Of a stretch of 64,000 bases of DNA, positions 6,071 to 62,800 are shown one piece after another (within the stretch, counting starts at the first letter, position 1; each line of letters begins with the position of its first letter). Where the stretch lies: contig KL197726.1 of the NCBI GenBank assembly GCA_000697665.1, positions 640,452 through 704,451 on the forward strand. Reading direction: 5' to 3'. The DNA is from Jaapia argillacea MUCL 33604 (taxonomy: Eukaryota; Basidiomycota; Agaricomycetes; Jaapiales; Jaapiaceae). A program made the translations under genes and the position numbers. Below the pieces are notes generated by a model that was not told the origin of the DNA, did no database searches, and saw only the letters and a list, made by a program, of their open reading frames with translations.

Positions 6071-8010
6071 TGACAAACTTAGATTCTGATCAATGACAGG
6101 TCACCAGCTTGCTCACCAACCAAGGTCAACTTTCAAAGTGATCCCACCTCCTTTTGAATGATCTCACAAGGTGTTTAAGGTTGCACAGAGTTGAGGAGGG
6201 GGTAAAAAATAGAGAATATAAATAAAGAATTGATTTTTATACTTCTGCACCACTAAAAGCAAACTTATGGTGCCAACAGACTCTTGAGAGTCAGTCACCA
6301 TGTTGATTCTGATCAATGACATGGTACCAGTTTGCTCACCGAGCAAGGTCCAATTTTGAAAGTGACCCCATCCCCTTTTGATTGATCTTGCAGGAGGGTT
6401 TGGGATGGGCAGAGTTGAGGATGGAGCAAACAATAGAGAAGATCAAATAAAGAATTGACTTTATACTTCTGCACCACTAAAAGCAAACTTATGGCTTGGA
6501 CCAACTCTTGAGAGTCAGTCACCATGCCAATTCTGATCAATGACATGGTACCAGTTTGCTCACCGAGTGAGGTCAAATTTTGAAGGTGACCCCACCCCCT
6601 TTTGAATGATCTCCCAGGGGGATTTGGGATGTGCAGAGTCAAGGATGGATGGAGTAAACAATCAAGAAGATCAAGAAGATCAAATGAAGGATTGACTTTA
6701 TAATTCTGCACCACTAAAAGCAAACTTATGGCACCGACAGGCTCTTGAGAGTTAGTTGCGATATTGATTCTGATCAATTCTGATCAATGACATGGTACCA
6801 GTTTGCTCACTGAGCAAGGTCAAATTTTGAAAGTGACCCCACCCCCTTTTGAATGATCTTACAGGGGGGTTTGGGATGAGCAGAATTGAGGATGGAGGAA
6901 AGATAGAGAATATAAAATAAAGAATTGATTTTTATACTTCTGCATCACTAAAAGCAAGTGTATGGCATGGACAGGCCCTTGAGAGTCAGTCTTCATGTCG
7001 ATTCTGATCAGCGGTGTGTTACCTACTTGCTCACCAAACAAGGTCAACTTTTCAAAGTGACCCCACCCCCTTTTGAATGATCTTGCAGGGGGGTATGGGA
7101 TGGGCAGGATTGAGGATGGAAGAAAAGATAGAGAAAATAAAATAAAGAATTGATTTTTATACTTCTGTATCACTAAAAGCAAGTGTATGGCACAGACAGG
7201 CCCTTGAGAGTCAGTCCTCATGTCAATTCTGATCAATGACGTGTTGCCTACTTGCTCACCGAACAAGGTCAACTTTTCAAAGTGACCCCACCCCCTTTCG
7301 AATGATCTCGCAGGGGGGTACAGGATGGGCAGGATTGAGGATGGAGGAAAAGATAGAGAATATAAAATAAAGAATTGATTTTTATGCTTCTACACCACTG
7401 AAAGCAAGTGTATGGCATGGACAGGCCCTTGAGGGTCAGTCCTCACATCGATTCTGATCAATGATGTGTTGCCTACTTGCTCACCAGACAAGGTCAACTT
7501 TTCAAAGTGACCCCACCCCCTTTCGAATGATCTTGCAGGGGGGTATGGGATGGGCAGGATTGAGGATGGAGGAAAAGATAGAGAACATAATATAAAGAAT
7601 TGATTTTTATACTTCTGTATCACTAAAAGCAAGTGTATGGCATGGACAGGCCCTTGAGGGTCAGTCCTCACGTCGATTCTGATCAATGACATGTTGCCTA
7701 CTTGCTCACCAAATGAGGTCAACTTTTCAAAGTGACCCCACCCCCTTTCGAATGATCTCGCAGGGGGTTTTGGGATGGGCAGAAGTGGAGATGAAAGAAA
7801 TGAAAGATTTCAAAATTAAGGTGTTGCTTTTTCTACACCACTAAAAGCAAGCTTATGGTACTGACAGACTCTTCAGAGCCTGTCACTGTGTCAACTCTGA
7901 TCAACCACACGATACCCCCTTGCTCACCAAATGAGATCACTTTTCAAAGTGACTCCACTCCATATCGAATGATCTCGCAGGGAGGTTTGGGATGGGTAGA
8001 AACACAGATC
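6071..8010. repeat. Tandem array of ~224-bp units (about nine copies)
   Basis: The anchor 'GATCAATGAC...' recurs near 6,089, 6,312, 6,536, 6,783, 7,006, 7,231, 7,458, 7,681 and, more diverged, 7,898. Spacings are 223, 224, 247, 223, 225, 227, 223 and 217 bp; the 247 step includes a small internal duplication. Each unit also holds a G-run block (GCAGGGGGG) and an 'AGAATTGATTTTTATACTTCT' type block. Some minus-strand frames stay open for two or three units because some spacings are multiples of three (225), but others are not (223, 224, 247), so I do not call a protein. It reads as a minisatellite or satellite. Confidence 0.88.
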
Positions 8011-44618: not shown

Positions 44619-45834
44619 CTAAAGCCGCTGTTGCCATGTAAACTTCAACCAACCCTTCTCGGCAAACCCAGGAAAGCGACTACTCAAGGCTCCTTCGATG
44701 TCACTATGAAAAACGAGACGGGGACCATGGCGGAGGGAAAACTCCAGACTTCGAAGTTTGCTGAAATGAGACAGGGAAAGGACATGATTGACATGGTCCC
44801 AATTTCCCATATTCGTCAACATGGACGTCTCGCTGTACAAAAAACCGCAAATGATGAGTGTTTCGAGTGGAGGGTTTTGCAGCTGAGAAAGAAGCGTCTG
44901 AACGAGGCGAGGTGTCAGGATGTGGTCGAAGGTTGATGTTGATGCGACGAAATCCGTCAATTGGAAAGGATGTGAAAGTAGTCGTATGCGGTCGACTGTG
45001 TCTGTGTCGGGGTCATGAAGTTGATTAGAAATGATGACACGTGACAGACGTACCTATCGTTCTTTGAGACGGTGAATGAAAATGTATCTTGAGCTCACGT
45101 AGCGCAGTAGAAACGGACTGAAAAAACAGCTGGAGTGGCTCGATGTCTACTTCCCACACGGCACAGTCTAGTTGGACGAGATTCACGAATTCGAATTGTT
45201 GAGAAAAGATTGTGCTAAATCCAGGGAAATAAGAGGTATCAACCGTGAGCGAAGTGAGTGAAGACTCTCGATTTTCAACGCTGCCGGTGGGCAAGGCCTC
45301 TCTGGGATTTCCAGAGTCTTCCGGATCGTCACTCCTCCAAACACCCAATTCGACGTATTCCACCCACAATTCTTGTAAAAGGGGATAGGCGTTAACCAAC
45401 GCTGGCAGCTCCTCCAACGAACTGAATTGGCAATCGAACAATGCCAATGCCCTCACCGAAGGGAATTCGGTGCAGATAACGCGTTTGGTATCCTGGGATA
45501 GCTCATTCCAAACAGTTCCGTCCAGGCGCAATCGGGTGATGTTCTTGAGATAAGGAATTAAACATATGAGACGGACGTCGTGGAAGTGGGAGTGGGTGTG
45601 TAAACTTGTCAAACGCAGGTTACGAACATTTTGCGCGAGGAGGGGGTTGCTGAGAATGAATACAGGAAGCTGGCAAAAGTCGAGGTTTTCCAGCGCTAAG
45701 GTATCGAAGAGATGCTTCCGGCTGAATGGCAGCCAATCTCGACACGTCAAGCTGCAGGCGCGCAGCGCTTCGAGATCGTCATCCAAGTTGTCGATGATGA
45801 TGTCGATAAGTTCTTGTGGAAGTGAAGGAGGCAT
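44619..45834 (-). CDS. F-box/LRR-like protein C
   Basis: Exons 45,834-45,054 and 45,001-44,619 (52-nt intron) give 387 residues with an open frame. The F-box (SLPQELIDIIIDNLDDDLEA...CSLTCRDWLPFSRKHLFDTL) would bind Skp1. LRR-like strands follow ('NITRLRLDGTVWNEL', 'VRALALFDCQF', 'LVQLDCAVWEVD') and the C-terminal signature 'FPGFAEKGWLKF' is shared with copies at 27.8 and 28.9 kb. It is the only copy of this subfamily in the window with a full open frame. A short insert (GNPREALPTGSVENRES) distinguishes it from copy B. Confidence 0.88.
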
Positions 45835-46320: not shown

Positions 46321-49300
46321 CTACCGTTGACGATACACCACAGGCCTCCTCCCAGGCGATCGAAACCTCTCTCCATCCTGAAGGGCTGAGACTGGCGCAG
46401 AGTGTTCTGTGTGGGATGGAGCGTGCAGCTCTGGACGAACTCTGTCCAGATGATGCGCCTCAGGCGTTCGAAATGTCTCTCCATCCCGAAAGGCTGAAAA
46501 CTCCGCAGAGCGTTCCATGCTGGGTGGAGCTTGCATCTCTGAACGAACTCCGTCGATACGATACATCTCAGGCATTCGGAACCTCTCTCCATCCTGGTCG
46601 GCTGAAAACTCTACAGAGTGTTCCGCGTGGGATGGCGCTTGCATCTCTGGACGAACTCCGTCTATATGATACATCTCAGGCATTCGAAACCTCTCTGCAT
46701 CCTGGTTGGATGAAAACCCCACAGATTGTTCCACGTGGGATGGAGCTTGCATCTCTGGACGGATTCTGTCCATATGATACATCTCAGGCATTCGGAACCT
46801 CTCTCCATCCTGGTTGGCTGAAAACTCCACCGGGCGTTCCACGTGGGGTGGAGCTTGCATCTCTGGACGAACTCCGTCCGTGTGGCGCATCTCAGGCATT
46901 CGAAACCTCTCTCCATCCTGGTTGGCTGAGAACTCCACAGAGTGTTCCGCGTGGGATGGAGCCTGCCGCTCTGGACGAAGCCTCGAAGCTTCGTCCCGAA
47001 GTTCATGGACTGGGTTAGATCTCAAAGGTGACCTATCCTGCGTGAATTCCCTCACTCCATACTGTTCCATGTGGTGCGATGGATGCCATTCCGGAGTCCT
47101 GATGCTCTCATAGATGGGAGGGGCATGAAGGGGAGGGGCATGAAGGGGAGCGACACGATCTCCTTCCAGATGGATGATGGCGATGTTGTTAGAGACGGTC
47201 GAATGCTGTGCAATACCATCAATTTGGGCGAAAGCCTGCTTGAACCCAACAAGTCTCTGCACCCGAGTCTTGCATTTGGGGCAACGAGACCCTTTCCTCG
47301 CTGTACCCGAGCAAGAGTCGCATCCAGAGTGGGAGCACGGACGGAAGACGCAGGTTGATGTAATTCGTGGATGTAATGCGCAACTTGGGGGTCGATCGGG
47401 GTCAACAAGGTCGGGCAGCTGGAAACCTTGCGACCGATCCGGCTTATGCGCGGATTTGATGTCTTGTTGTGGTTGCCGTTTGTTTCTCGAATCCGCGAGA
47501 TAGTCGTCGGCAATTGAGAACCAAGGGACGTTGTTCTCAGCGTATGATTCTGCCGTGATAGGGCTAATCGGCGGTAAGACGCCGGTGACGATCTGGGATC
47601 CTTATTAGCAGAGCCGATCGAAACGGAATCCATAAGATCACATACCTCCCAATCAGAAGGACTAAGGATGTGGATATGGAACCGGTGCCCTTGTTCCTCG
47701 TCGTACATCTATACCGCTTCAGTTAGGATGTAGTAGAGTTGGGTGAGGACCGATTTCGACTTACTCTGGGAGACACAGAATCCTGGTATATCCTCTGTTC
47801 GCTGTAACAAGTTTAGGATCGGTTGGGAGCACGTATGTTTAAACTCACTTTTCCCTTCCAGGCGCCAATCCCAGACGCGGAACCATTGTTGGAGGCGGGG
47901 GAGAGGCCGCACTCCACAACATATACCGCTCGGGAGAATCAGGAGGGAAAGAACCGGGTAAAAACATGGGTGATCCTGCGAAGGGAGGGTAGTGTGGCGT
48001 GGATGATGGGGGACTTGAATAAACTTGCGAAGGTATTTTCACCATCCGGGGAGAAGACATGTATGACTGCTGCACAACGGGATAGTTTTGCGCCGGTGGT
48101 AATGTGTATGTGGGCAGCACGACGATAGGAGCTACTGGGTAAGTGGACCCCGGGGATGGTTGTGATACGATGGGTCTTCGCCCTTCAATCGGCGGATCTC
48201 CCTCGTAGGAGCTTTGCTCATCGTCGCTTCCTCCGCTTTTGTGGAAACAACAGCAGATGATGTCGAAGAAGCTGGAATCTTCATCGTGCGTGGGAGGCGC
48301 GGGCAGTCGTTTATACCGGGCGTTCAAGTGGACCATATTGTGTATTCTTCTTCTGTAGCTAGAAAGCCTCCAATTCTTGACGAGATCTTGGTCTCCTTTC
48401 ATTGACGGAACACTTGGAAGCAAGTGAGCGCCCCACCTATCTGATGGTGCAATTATTCGCCTTACTCTCGAACGCCGATGATACTGCCAGCCTGTAGCTC
48501 CAATTCGTCAGGTGTCTTGTCGCTTTCTAGGGTGCCGTCGGGAGTCCAATGACTCACGCCACGGGTGTGGTGATAGAAAGCGCCAAATCGCTCATCACGT
48601 CGAGGGAAGACGTCGAATTGCATACTACTATGTTTTGCCTCACGCATAACTTCTCCTTCGACGGTATAGTTACCGCCATGTGGCCTGACAACAATCTAAG
48701 ACCAGACATTACTTCATGGTGTGATGCGTAAAAATGGAGGATCCAGACCTGTTGTACAACACCGGATTGGGTCATTACGCCATCAAGCCATGGTTGTAAT
48801 CCAGCAACGATATAATCTTGCTCCTCACTATGGGTAGTTGGCTTGTCCTTCGGAATACCAGAGATCGCGTTCAGACCTTGACCATATACATGAGAAGGGA
48901 AAAGATCAAGAAGATGCAAGGAACACTTACTCCCAACCGAAACCTTAATCGCTTCCGGCGTCTGGCTTGAGGAAGTGTCGAATGTAATCCGCATGGCTTC
49001 CCTTTGAAACATCGGCTACAGCGACATCAGAACCAGCCCACTGACGGGCATCCCCTCACTCACTATGATGAAACCTCCAGCCTTGACAACTTTCGGAGGT
49101 AGCTTGTGGGCATATCTGGCGACAGGCACCAATGTGAACATACCCAGACTCTAGTAACAAGCTCAATCATGTAGACCAAAGAAGAAAAAAGAATCGAATA
49201 ACCCACTTTTTGGGGTATGGTTGGGGAAACACCATCCGGAACGCGGAGGGTACGATGAAAACGAAACTGTACACCTCCGGCTGTAACCGCCATGCCATCA

Positions 49301-56904: not shown

Positions 56905-59860
56905 ATGTTCAAAAGCAAAGGCAAGAAGAAGGGTGTCGCTGACGCCGTGTTGGATAACTCCGGTTTCGCTGTAGCTTTCATAGCCAATTTGGCTGATGGC
57001 GCAATCGCCGTCCCAGGGTTGAAAGCTGCAGCTCAAATAGCAAAGCAGTTGATCGAGGTTGCACAGGTGAGTTGATTGATTGTCCAACGATGGCTTTCTT
57101 GACGGTAGATGGATTTGTAGAAGGTGAAATCTAACAAGGAAGATTGCGAGACAGTTGCCAGTCGCACCTGCGAGCTTGTCGGTACTCTTGTGAAATGTCT
57201 CGAGGGGAAGCGAGAAGAGGAGATCGAGGAAGGATTGAAGGGAAATATTGACGAGTTTGGACGGTATGTTTCCTTTGCGACTGATGATAGTCTTTATAGT
57301 ACTTCGTAACACCATTGATCCATAGACAACTCGAGAAGATCCGAACCGAGATGCACAAGATGGCATCTCGCAAGACTCTTTCTCGCATAGTGAACCACAC
57401 CAAAGATGCTCAAGATATTATCCAGTGGAAGGAATGTTTGGATCAGGCCCATAAGACATTCCAGGTTCGGATATTTGCTTCTTATGTATAGCTTTGACAA
57501 TTTGACACTGCCTAATTGTAGATTCAATTGGGGATTGGGGGAAGGTTATTTGCAGCTGATGCTCATCAGCAAGTAATGAGCACTCAGCAACAAGTGATGC
57601 AAAAGTTAGATGCTATCCAGCAAGGAGTTGTATGTATAGTACCTGGATGTATCTTCTTTTTATGTCTGACCAGTTTGACAGGTTTTACCTCCAAATCTCA
57701 AGTAAGATATATTTTGCTCTGTGACTATGATAGTAAACTCATCCAAGTATAGTCTTCTTATTTCACGAGCTCTACCTCCAGCACCAGCCATCTTTTTTGG
57801 CCGAGACCAGTATCTTACGGCTGCTGTTGATCATATTCTCCACAGCACTGAGCCAACTAGATTGGCTATCTTAGGTGGGGGTGGTATGGGTAAAACCACC
57901 CTCACTTGTGCAATATTGCACCATAATAAAGTAGTGGATCAGTTCAAAGATCAGAGATTTTTTGTGGCTTGTGATGCAGCCACCTCAGCAGAACTTCTTC
58001 TGGATTCTATTCTAGCAGTTTTTCAGGTTTCTAGGTCAAACCAAGATGGTTTTCTGGCCTTGGAAACATTTTTGCAGGGAGCATCACAAACTTTGCTGGT
58101 TCTAGATAATCTTGAAACTGCATACATGGGTGCTGATCAGCATTTAGTGGTAGAAATTCTGCAAAGAATTGTTGGATATAGTCAGATCACTTTAATAATT
58201 ACCATGCGAGGGACCCAGAGCCCATATGGTATACAATGGTCAGATTCAACCATGATACCACCACTTCCTTCACTATCACTTGAGGCTTCTCGTGCTGCCT
58301 TCCTTTCTGTTAAACCATATGTCAATCAATTTGACATCCTTGATGAACTTCTTCAGGAACTGGACTGTGTACCATTGGCAATTCATTTGATAGCTCAGCT
58401 AGCAAAGTATCAACCTTTAGGAGTACTGTTAAAAAGGTGGAAACAGGAGAAAACACACTTGTTGAGTTTGGAAGGAGACCACCGCTTAACCAATATTGAG
58501 ACATCAGTCTCTCTTTCTTTATCATATCTTTCACCTGATTCGCTGAGGCTTTTGTCAATTCTTTGTTATGTTCCCAATGGAATATATCAATGGGAGGATA
58601 GTCTAGACAAAGTGATATCAAATGGAAATGTGTTCTCTGCCTGTGGAGAGCTTTTGAAAGCAGCATTGATCTATGTTCAAGAGGGAAACCTCAAGGTGCT
58701 CTCACCAATTAGGTACTACATCTTACAAACTCATGGTCCTAGTATTGAAGACATATCAGGAATTGAAAAATTCTACATCAAGTTGATACAGAAATACAAA
58801 AACTGGTCTTGGAATGATGGAACATATCATGACACATATAAACACCTATTTCCTGAGATTGGAAATATCACATCAGTATTTTTAAAGGCTCTTGATAATC
58901 ATGGAAGCTCAGAGATTGCTGATGGAATTATAAAGATCTCATTGTTCATGAATACCTGCTGTCCATCAACACAACTATTAAATGCACAGTTGCATCAATT
59001 GTCAACCTCAGACATGAATAATCAGAGAGGAGAAGTGCAATTTATCTTAGGGAAAACATTATACCTTATAAGCCAGTATGCAGAAGCTAAGGATATGCTG
59101 GGCCAGGCTAAAGCACAGTTTGACATGATTGGATCCAAGTTGGGGGCTGTGCAGTGCCTTCAGAGTTTGGGCAACATTCTACGCATGGAGAACAAGTATG
59201 CAGATGCCAAAGATATGCTGGGCCAGGCTAAAGCACAGTTTGACATGATTGGTGAGAAATTAGNNNNNNNNNNNNNNNNNNNNNNNNNNNNNNNNNNNNN
59301 NNNNNNNNNNNNNNNNNNNNNNNNNNNNNNNNNNNNNNNNNNNNNNNNNNNNNNNNNNNNNNNNNNNNNNNNNNNNNNNNNNNNNNNNNNNNNNNNNNNN
59401 NNNNNNNNNNNNNNNNNNNNNNNNNNNNNNNNNNNNNNNNNNNNNNNNNNNNNNNNNNNNNNNNNNNNNNNNNNNNNNNNNNNNNNNNNNNNNNNNNNNN
59501 NNNNNNNNNNNNNNNNNNNNNNNNNNNNNNNNNNNNNNNNNNNNNNNNNNNATTGGATCCAAGTTGGGGGCTGTGCGGTGCCTTCAGAGTTTGGGTGACA
59601 TTCTACGCATGGAGAACAAGTATGCAGATGCCAAAGATATGCTGGGCCAGGCTAAAGCACAGTTTGACATGATTGGAGACAAGTTGGGGGCTGCCCAGTG
59701 CCTTTGGAGTTTGGGCAACATTCTACGTATGGAGAACAAGTATGCAGATGCCAAAGATATGCTGGGCCAGGCTAAAGCACAGTTTGACATGATTGGACAC
59801 AGGTTGGAGGCTGCTGAGTGCCTTGAGATCTTAGAGAATATATTGCTCATGGAGGATTAG
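56905..59860 (+). CDS. NLR-type receptor: helical N-terminus, NB-ARC, TPR repeats
   Basis: Fungal NOD-like receptor. Exons: 56,905-57,066, 57,121-57,263, 57,326-57,464, 57,522-57,629, 57,682-57,701, then 57,753 to the end; all borders are GT-AG and keep phase. Residues 1-184 are helical (MFKSKGKKKGVADAVL...), resembling MLKL-NTD-like fungal NLR N-termini. NB-ARC: P-loop GGGGMGKTT at residues 232-240, Walker B LLVLDNLE with Asp309, 'LIITMRG', and 'CVPLAIHLIAQL' as the GLPL region; no clear MHD motif. From about 59,060 come TPR-like 40-residue units. A run of N (59,264-59,551) interrupts the repeats and the frame does not match across it, as expected from an estimated gap size. The last unit is truncated (ILENILLMED). 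The expected role is nonself or danger sensing. Confidence 0.88.
59060..59860 (+). repeat. 120-bp TPR repeat array with high internal identity
   Basis: Units start at 59,128, 59,248, (gap), 59,552, 59,672 and 59,792, exactly 120 bp apart; a more diverged unit precedes them. Each encodes 40 residues, 'IGSKLGAVQCLQSLGNILRM' then 'ENKYADAKDMLGQAKAQFDM'. The second half is essentially invariant at DNA level between units, while residue 3 (S, E, S, D, H), 9 (Q, R, Q, E) and 12 (Q, Q, W, E) vary. Confidence 0.93.
59264..59551. other. Assembly gap (288 N)
   Basis: Unknown bases inside the TPR array. For whole 120-bp units the missing length should be 104, 224 or 344 bp, and so on; 288 fits none, so the true size and unit number are unknown. 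Confidence 0.97.
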
Positions 59861-62800
59861 TTCACACAGGTTAAAGATCTTCTTTGTCACTGAATATTTT
59901 CACTTTTACTTGGCTCATTCTTTTTTTTACTTCTATTGGGTTTTCTCAGCTCTTCTCACTGTGAACTATGTTTGATACTTATGCATTGTATGATTGGTTG
60001 CTAAGATACAAGATGTCCTAGTAAACTTGTACAATTATACACATTCTCCTCATTGAGATATATATAAATTGTGAGTACCAGACATGTTTTGCAAAGAGTC
60101 TATCTAGTATGTCTACATTGTTGTTTTCAACATATATGGAAATCCAAAAACAAAGTCAAGAAAGTTAAGTAGGAAGAACCAATTTGAATCTCAACAACTA
60201 CACTAATTGCCATTATCTATTCACCATCTTGATTAGAAATTTGCCTACAGGTGGCTGCCAAGAAGAATTTTGAATTTGAAGAACTATGTGGTTTATGTAC
60301 CAATAAAGATTGGTATTTTTGTTAATCTGTTTTCATCATGTTGTTGTGGCAAATTTTCTGGTCTCATCAATATGAGGATGAAGGTGAGTGGTACAGTAAA
60401 TGTTAAGCTATGGCCAGTTTTTCTCAATGTTTTTCTTTTTTTTTTTTTTCAGATTCTCTTGTTTTCAAAATAACTGTAGAACAGAAATCAATCTTGCAAG
60501 ATAACACTGATTTTTCATAGTAGTCTGTTAGAACTGACTGCCTCAAGTAATGTAATTGTGCAATACTGAATCAGATCATGTTATATGGTAGCAGACCAAG
60601 TAACACAAGATCATGTAGCTATGAGACAATATATATATGTTACATGGTAGCAGACTGAGACACAACATACCTGGAAACAACTAATAAAGCAATGGGTGAC
60701 ACCAACAAAACACATGGAGGGATACCCTCACAATCTTCTATTGGTATGGATTGGTTAGTGTATCTGTTCAATTAAGGTTAAGAGAACTCTTCTCCCAACT
60801 CTACAGAACTCAAGGATTGTCCGAGAACAAAGATCCAAGAAAAGCATTCTTTGATTGATTCTCTTCAACCAAAAAACATATTCAAATTCATCTCATAGCT
60901 CAATCCCCTACTTATAGTCTCATTTTGTGCTCATTATATCTACCTCCTATCCACTCACTCCTACCACAAGGAACTGCCTTTTAGTGTGCAAAAGCCTGAA
61001 TGCCAGTCATCGCTGTCCCAAGTATAAGTGCGTGAATGTCCTATCAATCAACCAACCACCATCATTAGTAACCCACCCAAGCATAAACAGTGATGCAAAT
61101 CACTCACTTATCTGTACAAGAATTCCCACCAAGCACATCCAAAATGATCCTTGAATGTTGAAGCGCCTTTCCACAATTATTATTCTTCACCATACTGATC
61201 ATCTCAGATGCAACAGGCCTCATATTTTTCAGTTGTCTGCCTTATGATGATAAGGAGGGTGCGTAACCTTGAGGGCAAGAACAACAAAACATGGAAGGGA
61301 ATAAAAACTGCAACTGCAAACCTGTTAATAACCCTAATGCAACCTCCATCTGCACATCCACCAATTTCTTCTAGAGCAAGAAGCAAGAGAGGGGAGTTGG
61401 TAATGACAAAGAAATGTGGGAGCAAAAAGACTCACGAAACATTCTACAATCTCTCCTTTTGCTGTTGCATTAGACAACAAATCTGTTAAAAGATGATAAG
61501 GTACCCTGGATAGAGGGGGAAGGGAATATGGTGATATACAAAACAGGAGAGAAGGGTAGGTATATGCTTGGAAGAAGAGAAGGGGTGTATGGGAAGGAAG
61601 ATGAAAGATGAAAGATGAAAACAGGGAAATGCAAAGTACAAAGACTTGGAAACCAACAAGAACACAACAAGCAGCAAGACCACAGAAAAAAAAGGACCCT
61701 TCAAGACCAGGTAACCACCTCTCCTTCTGTGCCTTGATGCATGACAAGCGAGGATTTGACTAAGGCTGTCGATCTGTATCCTGAGTCTATGCAGTGAGGG
61801 GAAGTTAGTTTGTTTAGAACTGAGTTTGAAAGGGAGGGAGGAGGGTGTAGGTAGGTGTTAGGAGGGTGGGATCACGAGATGCAAGATATATCCTCTAGAG
61901 GAGGTGGCATATGCTCCCAAAATCACGCCATGCCCTTGAACCACCACCCCCTGAAAAGCCATTCAAAAAAAAACATGAAAAATAATGTACCATTTGATCT
62001 CCCTAGCAACCAACCCATATGCAACATAAATAACCTTGGCACAACCATACCCCTTTATAGTTGGACCTAATAACCCAAGGGAACCCATTTCGTGGAGGAT
62101 GGATGTATCGAGGGCTGGGGTGAAGGTGAAAAGGGATGACAGGTCACATTGAAGCAAGTAGGAAGTTGATTTTGTTTAGGTAAGCCTCAAGGACTCGAGG
62201 CATAAGTTTATCCTAGATGTGATATGAAGACACCTCTCAGGCTCAGAAATCAAAAGAATACAAGGTTGGAAATACTCTCACCACATCCCTACACCCTGTA
62301 GCAGAACCAAATCTCACAGGTGGAGTATGGTGAGGTAATGTACCGAATAGCAATCTCATCTTCCGTCAAGAGTGATTCCAACGTCAATGGATCCTGTCAC
62401 CAAACGTCGAACCCAAGTCATTGTGATTGGAGTGATAAATTCAACTTGCAGTTGAATTTTGCAAGTGAATGAGATGAGGCTAGGTTCAAAATATATCTGG
62501 ATTCAAAGGGTACAACCCATCCAGACTGAAAGAAATGACCCTAGTTCCAGTGGTACAAAAACACCTTGCCACCAATGTCACCACCGAAACATGCAAAACG
62601 AGTGTGGAAGACTGATTAAAGACCTGATAGCTATAGACGTTGACAACATCTGATGATCTGTGTTACATTTGTGAGAACATCATTTTGCGAGGTGGGACTT
62701 GGTGAGGGCAAGGAGTGTAAGGGCTAGAAACACAGAATGAGGAAGACACGAGTGAGTGAGTCAAGAGGGGGGAGTGACATTGGCTATATCCTACAGCAGA

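Follow-up and report, generated by a model that had tools for sequence, protein, structure and literature searches.

Gene W, the subject of this analysis, lies at positions 56905-59860 of a 64,000-nucleotide stretch of the Jaapia argillacea MUCL 33604 genome (hereafter the window; positions 640452-704451 of contig KL197726.1, here called C18). Its relatives, named A, B, C, D, E and F, were found by searching the genome (43.7 Mb in 95 contigs). W has the architecture of a fungal NOD-like receptor (NLR), it belongs to a family of duplicates, and it is under purifying selection outside its tetratricopeptide repeats (TPRs), while the variation between the repeat units of the family is concentrated in the groove that is expected to form the binding face.

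Gene W and its relatives

W is a real gene with an MLKL-like N-terminus, an NB-ARC domain and 40-residue TPRs, and this architecture is sound. The gene consists of six exons separated by five GT-AG introns and runs on the plus strand from the ATG at 56905 to the TAG at 59858-59860; relatives C, D and A share the intron borders. The short introns, the set of domains and the nature of the N-terminal domain pointed to a fungus, and among fungi to a basidiomycete. Exon 1 (56905-57066) is an open frame from the ATG to a GT donor that is kept in these three relatives. The AG/GT borders of exon 2 (57121-57263) and exon 3 (57326-57464) are also kept in all three, with identical exon lengths, as are those of exon 4 (57522-57629), which measures 108 bases in C, 129 in D and 87 in A, and those of the 20-base exon 5 (57682-57701), which has 23 bases in A. 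Exon 6 (57753-59860) contains the NB-ARC domain, a linker, the TPR array with a run of N, and the stop codon. The frame of W is open for 649 codons up to the first complete TPR unit.

The NB-ARC nucleotide-binding domain was located at 57811-58110, with a Pfam score of 30.3 bits against a cut-off of 23.5, and a second search placed it identically; NACHT stayed below its Pfam cut-off in W (22.7 vs 26.7 bits). The MLKL-like domain comprises residues 44-153 and is encoded across introns at 57034-57536. Its assignment is marginal: with the W N-terminus alone as the query, Pfam MLKL_N scores 27.6 bits, just above its cut-off of 27.0, four of four N-termini match MLKL_N at expect values (E) up to 0.5, and in a search of the PDB the MLKL chains appear only at E 0.22-0.37, behind two ABC-transporter chains (0.21). 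TPR_12 reaches 34.9 bits after the N run (cut-off 30.1) and 23.1 bits, below the cut-off, before it. Thus, W carries the NB-ARC domain, the C-terminal TPRs and, marginally, the N-terminal effector domain of a fungal NLR of the STAND (signal transduction ATPases with numerous domains) class. At E values up to 0.1, the Pfam table contains neither a HET nor a WD40 match for W, which places W outside the HNWD type of het-d and het-e. The sequence-only reading, which had proposed an NLR at this position, was confirmed with respect to the start and stop coordinates, the architecture, the 120-bp period and the near-identical second halves of the units.

The array begins with a degenerate TPR unit (59008-59127), followed by complete unit 1 (59128-59247) and the first 16 bases of unit 2 (59248-59263), the remainder of which is unread. 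Then come 288 N (59264-59551), the sole N run in the window, two further complete units (59552-59671 and 59672-59791), and a last unit (59792-59860) that contains helix A only and meets the stop codon after 22 residues. The three complete units differ pairwise by 3, 7 and 10 bases per 120, that is, they are 91.7-97.5% identical in DNA; the proposed NLR of fungal type, with TPR units that closely resemble one another, is supported. Their mean pairwise amino-acid identity is 91.7% over 120 residues in total, with the N run splitting them; the criterion of high internal conservation given in PMC4986451 is an identity above 85% across 100 or more residues. The arrays of B and E are less alike internally (66.4% and 74.9%, respectively), and Tandem Repeats Finder assigned a score of 442 to the W array after the N run. 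On the other hand, the exact spacing that had been claimed for the units does not hold throughout. The distance from 59248 to 59552 is 304 bases, which does not correspond to a whole number of 120-bp units, and the open frames before and after the N run disagree; the length of the N run is therefore probably a scaffolding estimate, and the number of units in W is not countable from this assembly. Only three units are complete; one is represented by 16 bases, and the stop truncates the last. This exposes a trap for counts of the array. Relative D likewise has N in its TPR array, in a run of 1576 bases (C18:744674-746249).

A genome-wide search with the NB-ARC region of W as the query returned 10 matches including W itself, with two matches in some genes. 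On C18 they comprise A (at 560k, 64% identical to W), B (at 636k on the minus strand, with stops in the NB-ARC part), C (at 726k, 91% identical, with one stop in the array) and D (at 743k, 86% identical, with the N run in its array). On contig C66 they comprise E (at 4k, 80% identical, its NB-ARC part interrupted by stops) and F (at 58-67k), whose N-terminal and TPR parts stand about 8 kb apart (C66:58116-66075), with open frames between them; judged by its sequence, the intervening stretch reads as a Ty3-like retroelement. A distant relative, 31% identical, lies on contig C5. The 3' flank was duplicated along with the genes, since 59552-62029 of the window matches C at 87%. Among W, C, D and A, the ratio of nonsynonymous to synonymous rates (dN/dS) is 0.17-0.29 over residues 200-590 and 0.11-0.20 over residues 1-200 (0.12-0.20 when W is compared with the other three), and the non-repeat parts, NB-ARC and N-terminal, are therefore constrained by purifying selection. 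C66 was considered as an allelic copy of C18 and rejected on two 3 kb flanks, of which one had no match on C18 and the other shared only the stretches 3' of C and W, at 79-86%. A location of the family close to a telomere was also rejected, as neither the final 10 kb of C18 and of C66 nor the initial 8 kb of C66 contains a TTAGGG/CCCTAA run of at least 3.

Variation between the TPR units

The genome gave 54 unit hits. The 10 in the divergent relative A were analysed separately, and of the 44 others, 33 complete units with a score of at least 120 and without an unread residue were used (W 3, B 12, C 5, D 1, E 10, F 2), while 11 first, last and N-containing units were dropped. Across the 33 units, the most variable codons are 19, 3, 12 and 16, with entropies of 2.56, 2.21, 2.08 and 1.96 bits, respectively, and 32 of the 33 units are distinct in these four residues when a stop is counted as a letter. 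Residues 3, 8, 9 and 12 had been proposed as the variable ones from W alone. Of these, 3 and 12 were upheld, whereas 16 and 19 had been missed, although codon 16 (N/D) also differs among the three complete W units. Codons 8 and 9 were rejected as hypervariable: codon 9, with 1.08 bits, ranks tenth of 40, and codon 8, with 0.63 bits, falls outside the first twelve, though they rank seventh (codon 8) and fifth (codon 9) in the nine units of W, C and D. As a set, 3, 8, 9 and 12 exceed chance with p 0.014 over the 33 units, p 3e-4 over those of W, C and D, and p 9e-5 over the three W units from which the set was read; the 16-base unit at 59248 fits the five letters that had been listed at residue 3 and the four at residues 8, 9 and 12. 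Four in-frame stops occur in the 33 units (C18:727753, C66:3497, C18:635840 and C66:58119), three of them at codons 12 and 19.

For canonical TPR numbering, the SLGNIL motif of the unit, aligned to the TPR consensus, sets position 7 at residue 14, and residues 9, 12, 16, 19 and 20 are then presumably canonical positions 2, 5, 9, 12 and 13. Codons 12, 16 and 19, at TPR positions 5, 9 and 12, are three of the top four variable codons. The mean entropy at canonical positions 2, 5, 9, 12 and 13 is 1.80, vs 0.63 elsewhere (p 1.7e-4 from 200,000 random sets, 33 units). The same bias was found in the 29 stop-free units (p 8e-5), in the nine units of W, C and D (p 6e-4), and in E (10 units, p 6e-5), B (12 units, p 0.016) and A (10 units, p 0.019) taken singly, and it recurs in two other TPR_10-type arrays of the genome, with p 1e-4 for the 30 units on contig C36 and p 0.006 for the 10 on contig C17. 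An AlphaFold2 model of 59552-59857 reached a predicted local distance difference test (pLDDT) score of 93.6, with helices at residues 4-20 and 24-40 of each unit; these limits put residue 3 in the inter-unit turn and residues 8 to 19 within helix A. The best fold matches of the model are the TPR domains of LGN and Pins in complex with partners, these being animal cell-polarity proteins that are not known to carry NB-ARC. In TPRs, positions 2, 5, 9, 12, 13, 33 and 34 are reported as the most variable and as exposed on the concave face (PMC1261162). The variation between the units is concentrated on the expected binding face beyond chance (p ~2e-4), and this result is sound, with the face assigned through canonical TPR numbering and not from a ligand-bound structure of the W protein. 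The suggested diversification at ligand-facing sites is supported to this extent.

The array on C36 (129827-133702) is of the PF13374 type and consists of 30 perfectly registered 126-bp units, whose codon 38 varies among R, C, Y, H, Q and W. In the window itself, an open frame on the minus strand at 46321-47262 encodes about six alike 36-residue repeats (repeat array 46353-46979, 108 bp, 5.8 copies, 84% matches), its sole domain match being 21 residues of DUF1344, over the cut-off. Another open frame on the minus strand (45025-45834) has a weak F-box-like match (E 0.006, below the cut-off). At 6082-8001, a 225-bp sequence is repeated in tandem 8.5 times; no open frame runs through this array, the longest having 176 codons on the minus strand.

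Proposed function and competing explanations

Taken as a whole, W is probably an intracellular fungal NLR in which the TPRs act as a sensor that sets specificity, NB-ARC as a switch and the MLKL-like domain as an effector. The TPR superhelix would be the sensor, and helix-A residues 9, 12, 16 and 19 would line its concave groove and determine what is bound, so that the gain, loss, exchange or point change of units would alter specificity. Binding of a ligand would open the NB-ARC switch and lead to oligomerisation, and the MLKL-like four-helix domains, thereby gathered at the membrane, would kill or signal in the cell. The trigger may be a parasite or a non-self partner. We infer ligand binding, oligomerisation, cell death and non-self recognition of W by analogy with described receptors, and by the same analogy a shuffling of units by unequal recombination is plausible. 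Array E contains alike unit pairs six units apart. A search for multi-unit duplication in arrays E, B, C and A gave no significant best offset (p 0.32-0.65).

Several results weigh against this account. At the N-terminus, MLKL_N falls to 20.8 bits, below the cut-off, in a longer W query without one residue, and DUF7792 also matches four of four N-termini. The frame across the N run is unread, and an intact W protein is thus not proved; in addition, three of the five AlphaFold2 models are near 93, but two have pLDDT values of 43.7 and 47.2. The variability of the concave face is general for TPRs according to PMC1261162, and therefore it is, by itself, no proof of a recognition receptor. The nearest unit belongs to the same gene for only 16 of the 33 units. 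Finally, our site test, made with our own program on one FastTree tree, gave no significant positive selection at codons 3, 12, 16 and 19, synonymous change is raised at the variable codons (pS 0.73 vs 0.29 overall), and dN over the own-codon dS of the five groove codons is 0.23.

Positive selection, a test of which had been suggested, was not borne out by the site test at the variable codons. In the site test, codon 12 leans in the opposite direction (p 0.066), and codons 25 (p 0.011), 36 (p 0.060) and 7 (p 0.086), where beta exceeds an alpha near zero, do not survive correction for 40 tests. For the pre-chosen five-codon groove set, dN over the dS of the remaining codons is 1.39, with a 95% interval of 0.96-1.98; for codons 3, 12, 16 and 19, a set picked after seeing the data, dN over the dS of the rest is 2.13 (1.60-2.90). 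The dN of the pre-chosen groove set is 3.65 times the dN elsewhere (2.52-4.99), and pN/pS over all codons is 0.48. Units exchanged between genes would have no single tree, and hence the site test is weak in both directions.

An alternative that we regard as improbable is that the variable codons reflect mutation supply and not selection. The repeat domain would be CpG-poor and probably methylated, and the variable codons would be decaying CpG sites, with Arg CGN changing to Trp, Gln, Cys, His, Tyr or stop, and GGC GAC changing to GGT GAC or GGC AAC. Such decay would explain both the high synonymous rate at the variable codons and the stops, three of four of which are at codons 12 and 19. The observed/expected ratio of CpG is 0.05-0.19 in the arrays vs 0.75 in window 1-50000, and in the gene bodies it is 0.22 and 0.21 for the broken copies B and E vs 0.37-0.54 for W, C, D and A. 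Only 4 of 119 dinucleotide sites are doubly polymorphic for C/T followed by A/G, with at least four of each (9.1, 12.1, 15.3/16.1 and 19.1), and all are in groove codons. Of the 18 surviving CpGs, 13 are at the 16 sites touching codons 9, 12, 16 and 19 (permutation p 2e-5), the synonymous base 15.3 avoids CpG (CG 2, CA 12, TG 12, TA 6; Fisher p 0.0045), and 95/115 (83%) of the groove transition weight is in a CpG-type context vs 95/189 (50%) elsewhere.

However, this comparison was made post hoc, with the data already seen, and as a general rule the CpG explanation is rejected, since the C36 array does not reproduce it. Of the groove transitions in that array, 49 of 59 (minor-allele weight) lie outside a CpG-type context and the groove codons are still the most variable, while 12 of the 19 CpGs are at codon 38, outside the groove set and the second most variable codon of that array; on C17, 12 of 23 groove transitions are outside a CpG-type context. 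Doubly polymorphic sites of other contexts also exist, namely 6.2, 9.2, 12.2 and 19.2 at the threshold of 4, three of which share a base with the CpG-type sites, and at a threshold of 3 they number 14 vs 6 of the CpG type. Moreover, CpG is not under-represented at codon 19 (p 0.71) and not significantly so at codon 9 (p 0.10), codon 3 is not of the CpG type, and the share of transitions is equal at codons 3, 12, 16 and 19 (100:40) and at the rest (193:80). Repeat-induced point mutation (RIP) at CpA, as in Podospora, was rejected: the ratio (CA+TG)/(2TA) is 1.28 and 1.40 in B and E vs 1.28-1.38 in W, C, D and A. Measured per kilobase, CpG observed/expected is 0.70-1.00 at 50-57 kb, then 0.53, 0.11, 0.12 and 0.03, and 0.20-0.39 beyond those four kilobases to the window end; the loss of CpG is therefore regional and not specific to the array. 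Its profile looks as if a methylated, deaminating domain began within W and spared the promoter and the first exons. A still more doubtful extension of the CpG idea is that the ligand-facing codons are kept as CpG hot spots, at which repeat-directed methylation and deamination would supply receptor diversity by changing Arg to Trp, Gln, Cys, His or Tyr and Asp to Asn at groove positions 2, 5, 9 and 12, with stops as a by-product. If true, this would tie genome-defence mutation to receptor diversity, as in the RIP proposal put forward in PMC1805685.

No more probable than a mere supply of CpG mutations is ordinary drift, in which W would contain a scaffold TPR whose groove residues are little constrained and have no role in non-self recognition. 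The variability that PMC1261162 reports for groove positions of TPRs generally and the lack of positive selection at the variable codons in the site test speak for drift, but the duplicates and broken copies, the near-identical units and the NLR architecture resemble the recognition genes of Podospora, and the 3.65-fold excess of groove dN stands against it as well. It is least likely, at about the level of the hot-spot idea, that W is a decaying copy with an array that is partly an assembly product: the N runs in W and D, the misfit of spacing and frame across the former, the stops in B, E and C, the apparent splitting of F by a retroelement and the unreliability of short-read assemblies for such arrays, as stated in PMC12222747, fit decay, but the 649 open codons before the first complete unit, the conserved splice sites and a dN/dS of 0.12-0.29 between W and C, D and A do not.

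Comparison with known systems

The reading of W as a recognition receptor with a diversified TPR sensor can be set beside several described systems. In the TPR domains of LGN and Pins (PDB 4g2v, 3ro2 and 4a1s), the superhelix is the same as in the W model, with a TM-score of 0.87-0.88 by query length and a root-mean-square deviation of 1.3-1.6, but these domains are only about 20% identical to it. PMC9815663 (2022) describes NLRs of basidiomycetes in which, as in W, an MLKL-like N-terminus is joined to a nucleotide-binding domain, in some cases accompanied by TPRs; the TPR-bearing examples noted there are of the NACHT TPR type, whereas W scores for NB-ARC.

The WD40 NLRs of P. anserina are reported to diversify in the same mode, with RIP proposed as the mutation supply (PMC1805685, 2007). 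Like het-d and het-e of the HNWD family (PMC1805685; PMC12222747, 2025), the W family includes active and broken copies, alike repeats and hypervariable codons at the interface, and in both cases hypermutation is proposed as the mutation supply. On the other hand, het-d and het-e combine a WD40 propeller with NACHT where W combines TPRs with NB-ARC, their mutation is RIP at CpA where the loss here is of CpG, and allorecognition is proved for them but only proposed for W.

Among annotated TPR repeats in fungal NLRs, 21.2% show high internal conservation, and the TPR NLRs of Podospora are reported to be polymorphic in unit number, to vary at sites of the concave side and to have three positively selected positions (PMC4986451, 2014). 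W resembles the TPR NLRs of P. anserina in its NB-ARC domain, its nearly identical TPR units and its variable concave-side residues, and it differs from them in that its N-terminus is MLKL-like where theirs is sesB-like and in that W comes from one genome. Among the open-licence titles listed, none concerned the W family or CpG-driven NLR diversification. In general, this kind of gene is already described in fungi and the W family is an added case, through which a known class of fungal receptors gains a family of TPR NLRs with an MLKL-like N-terminus and with repeats that vary at the binding face.

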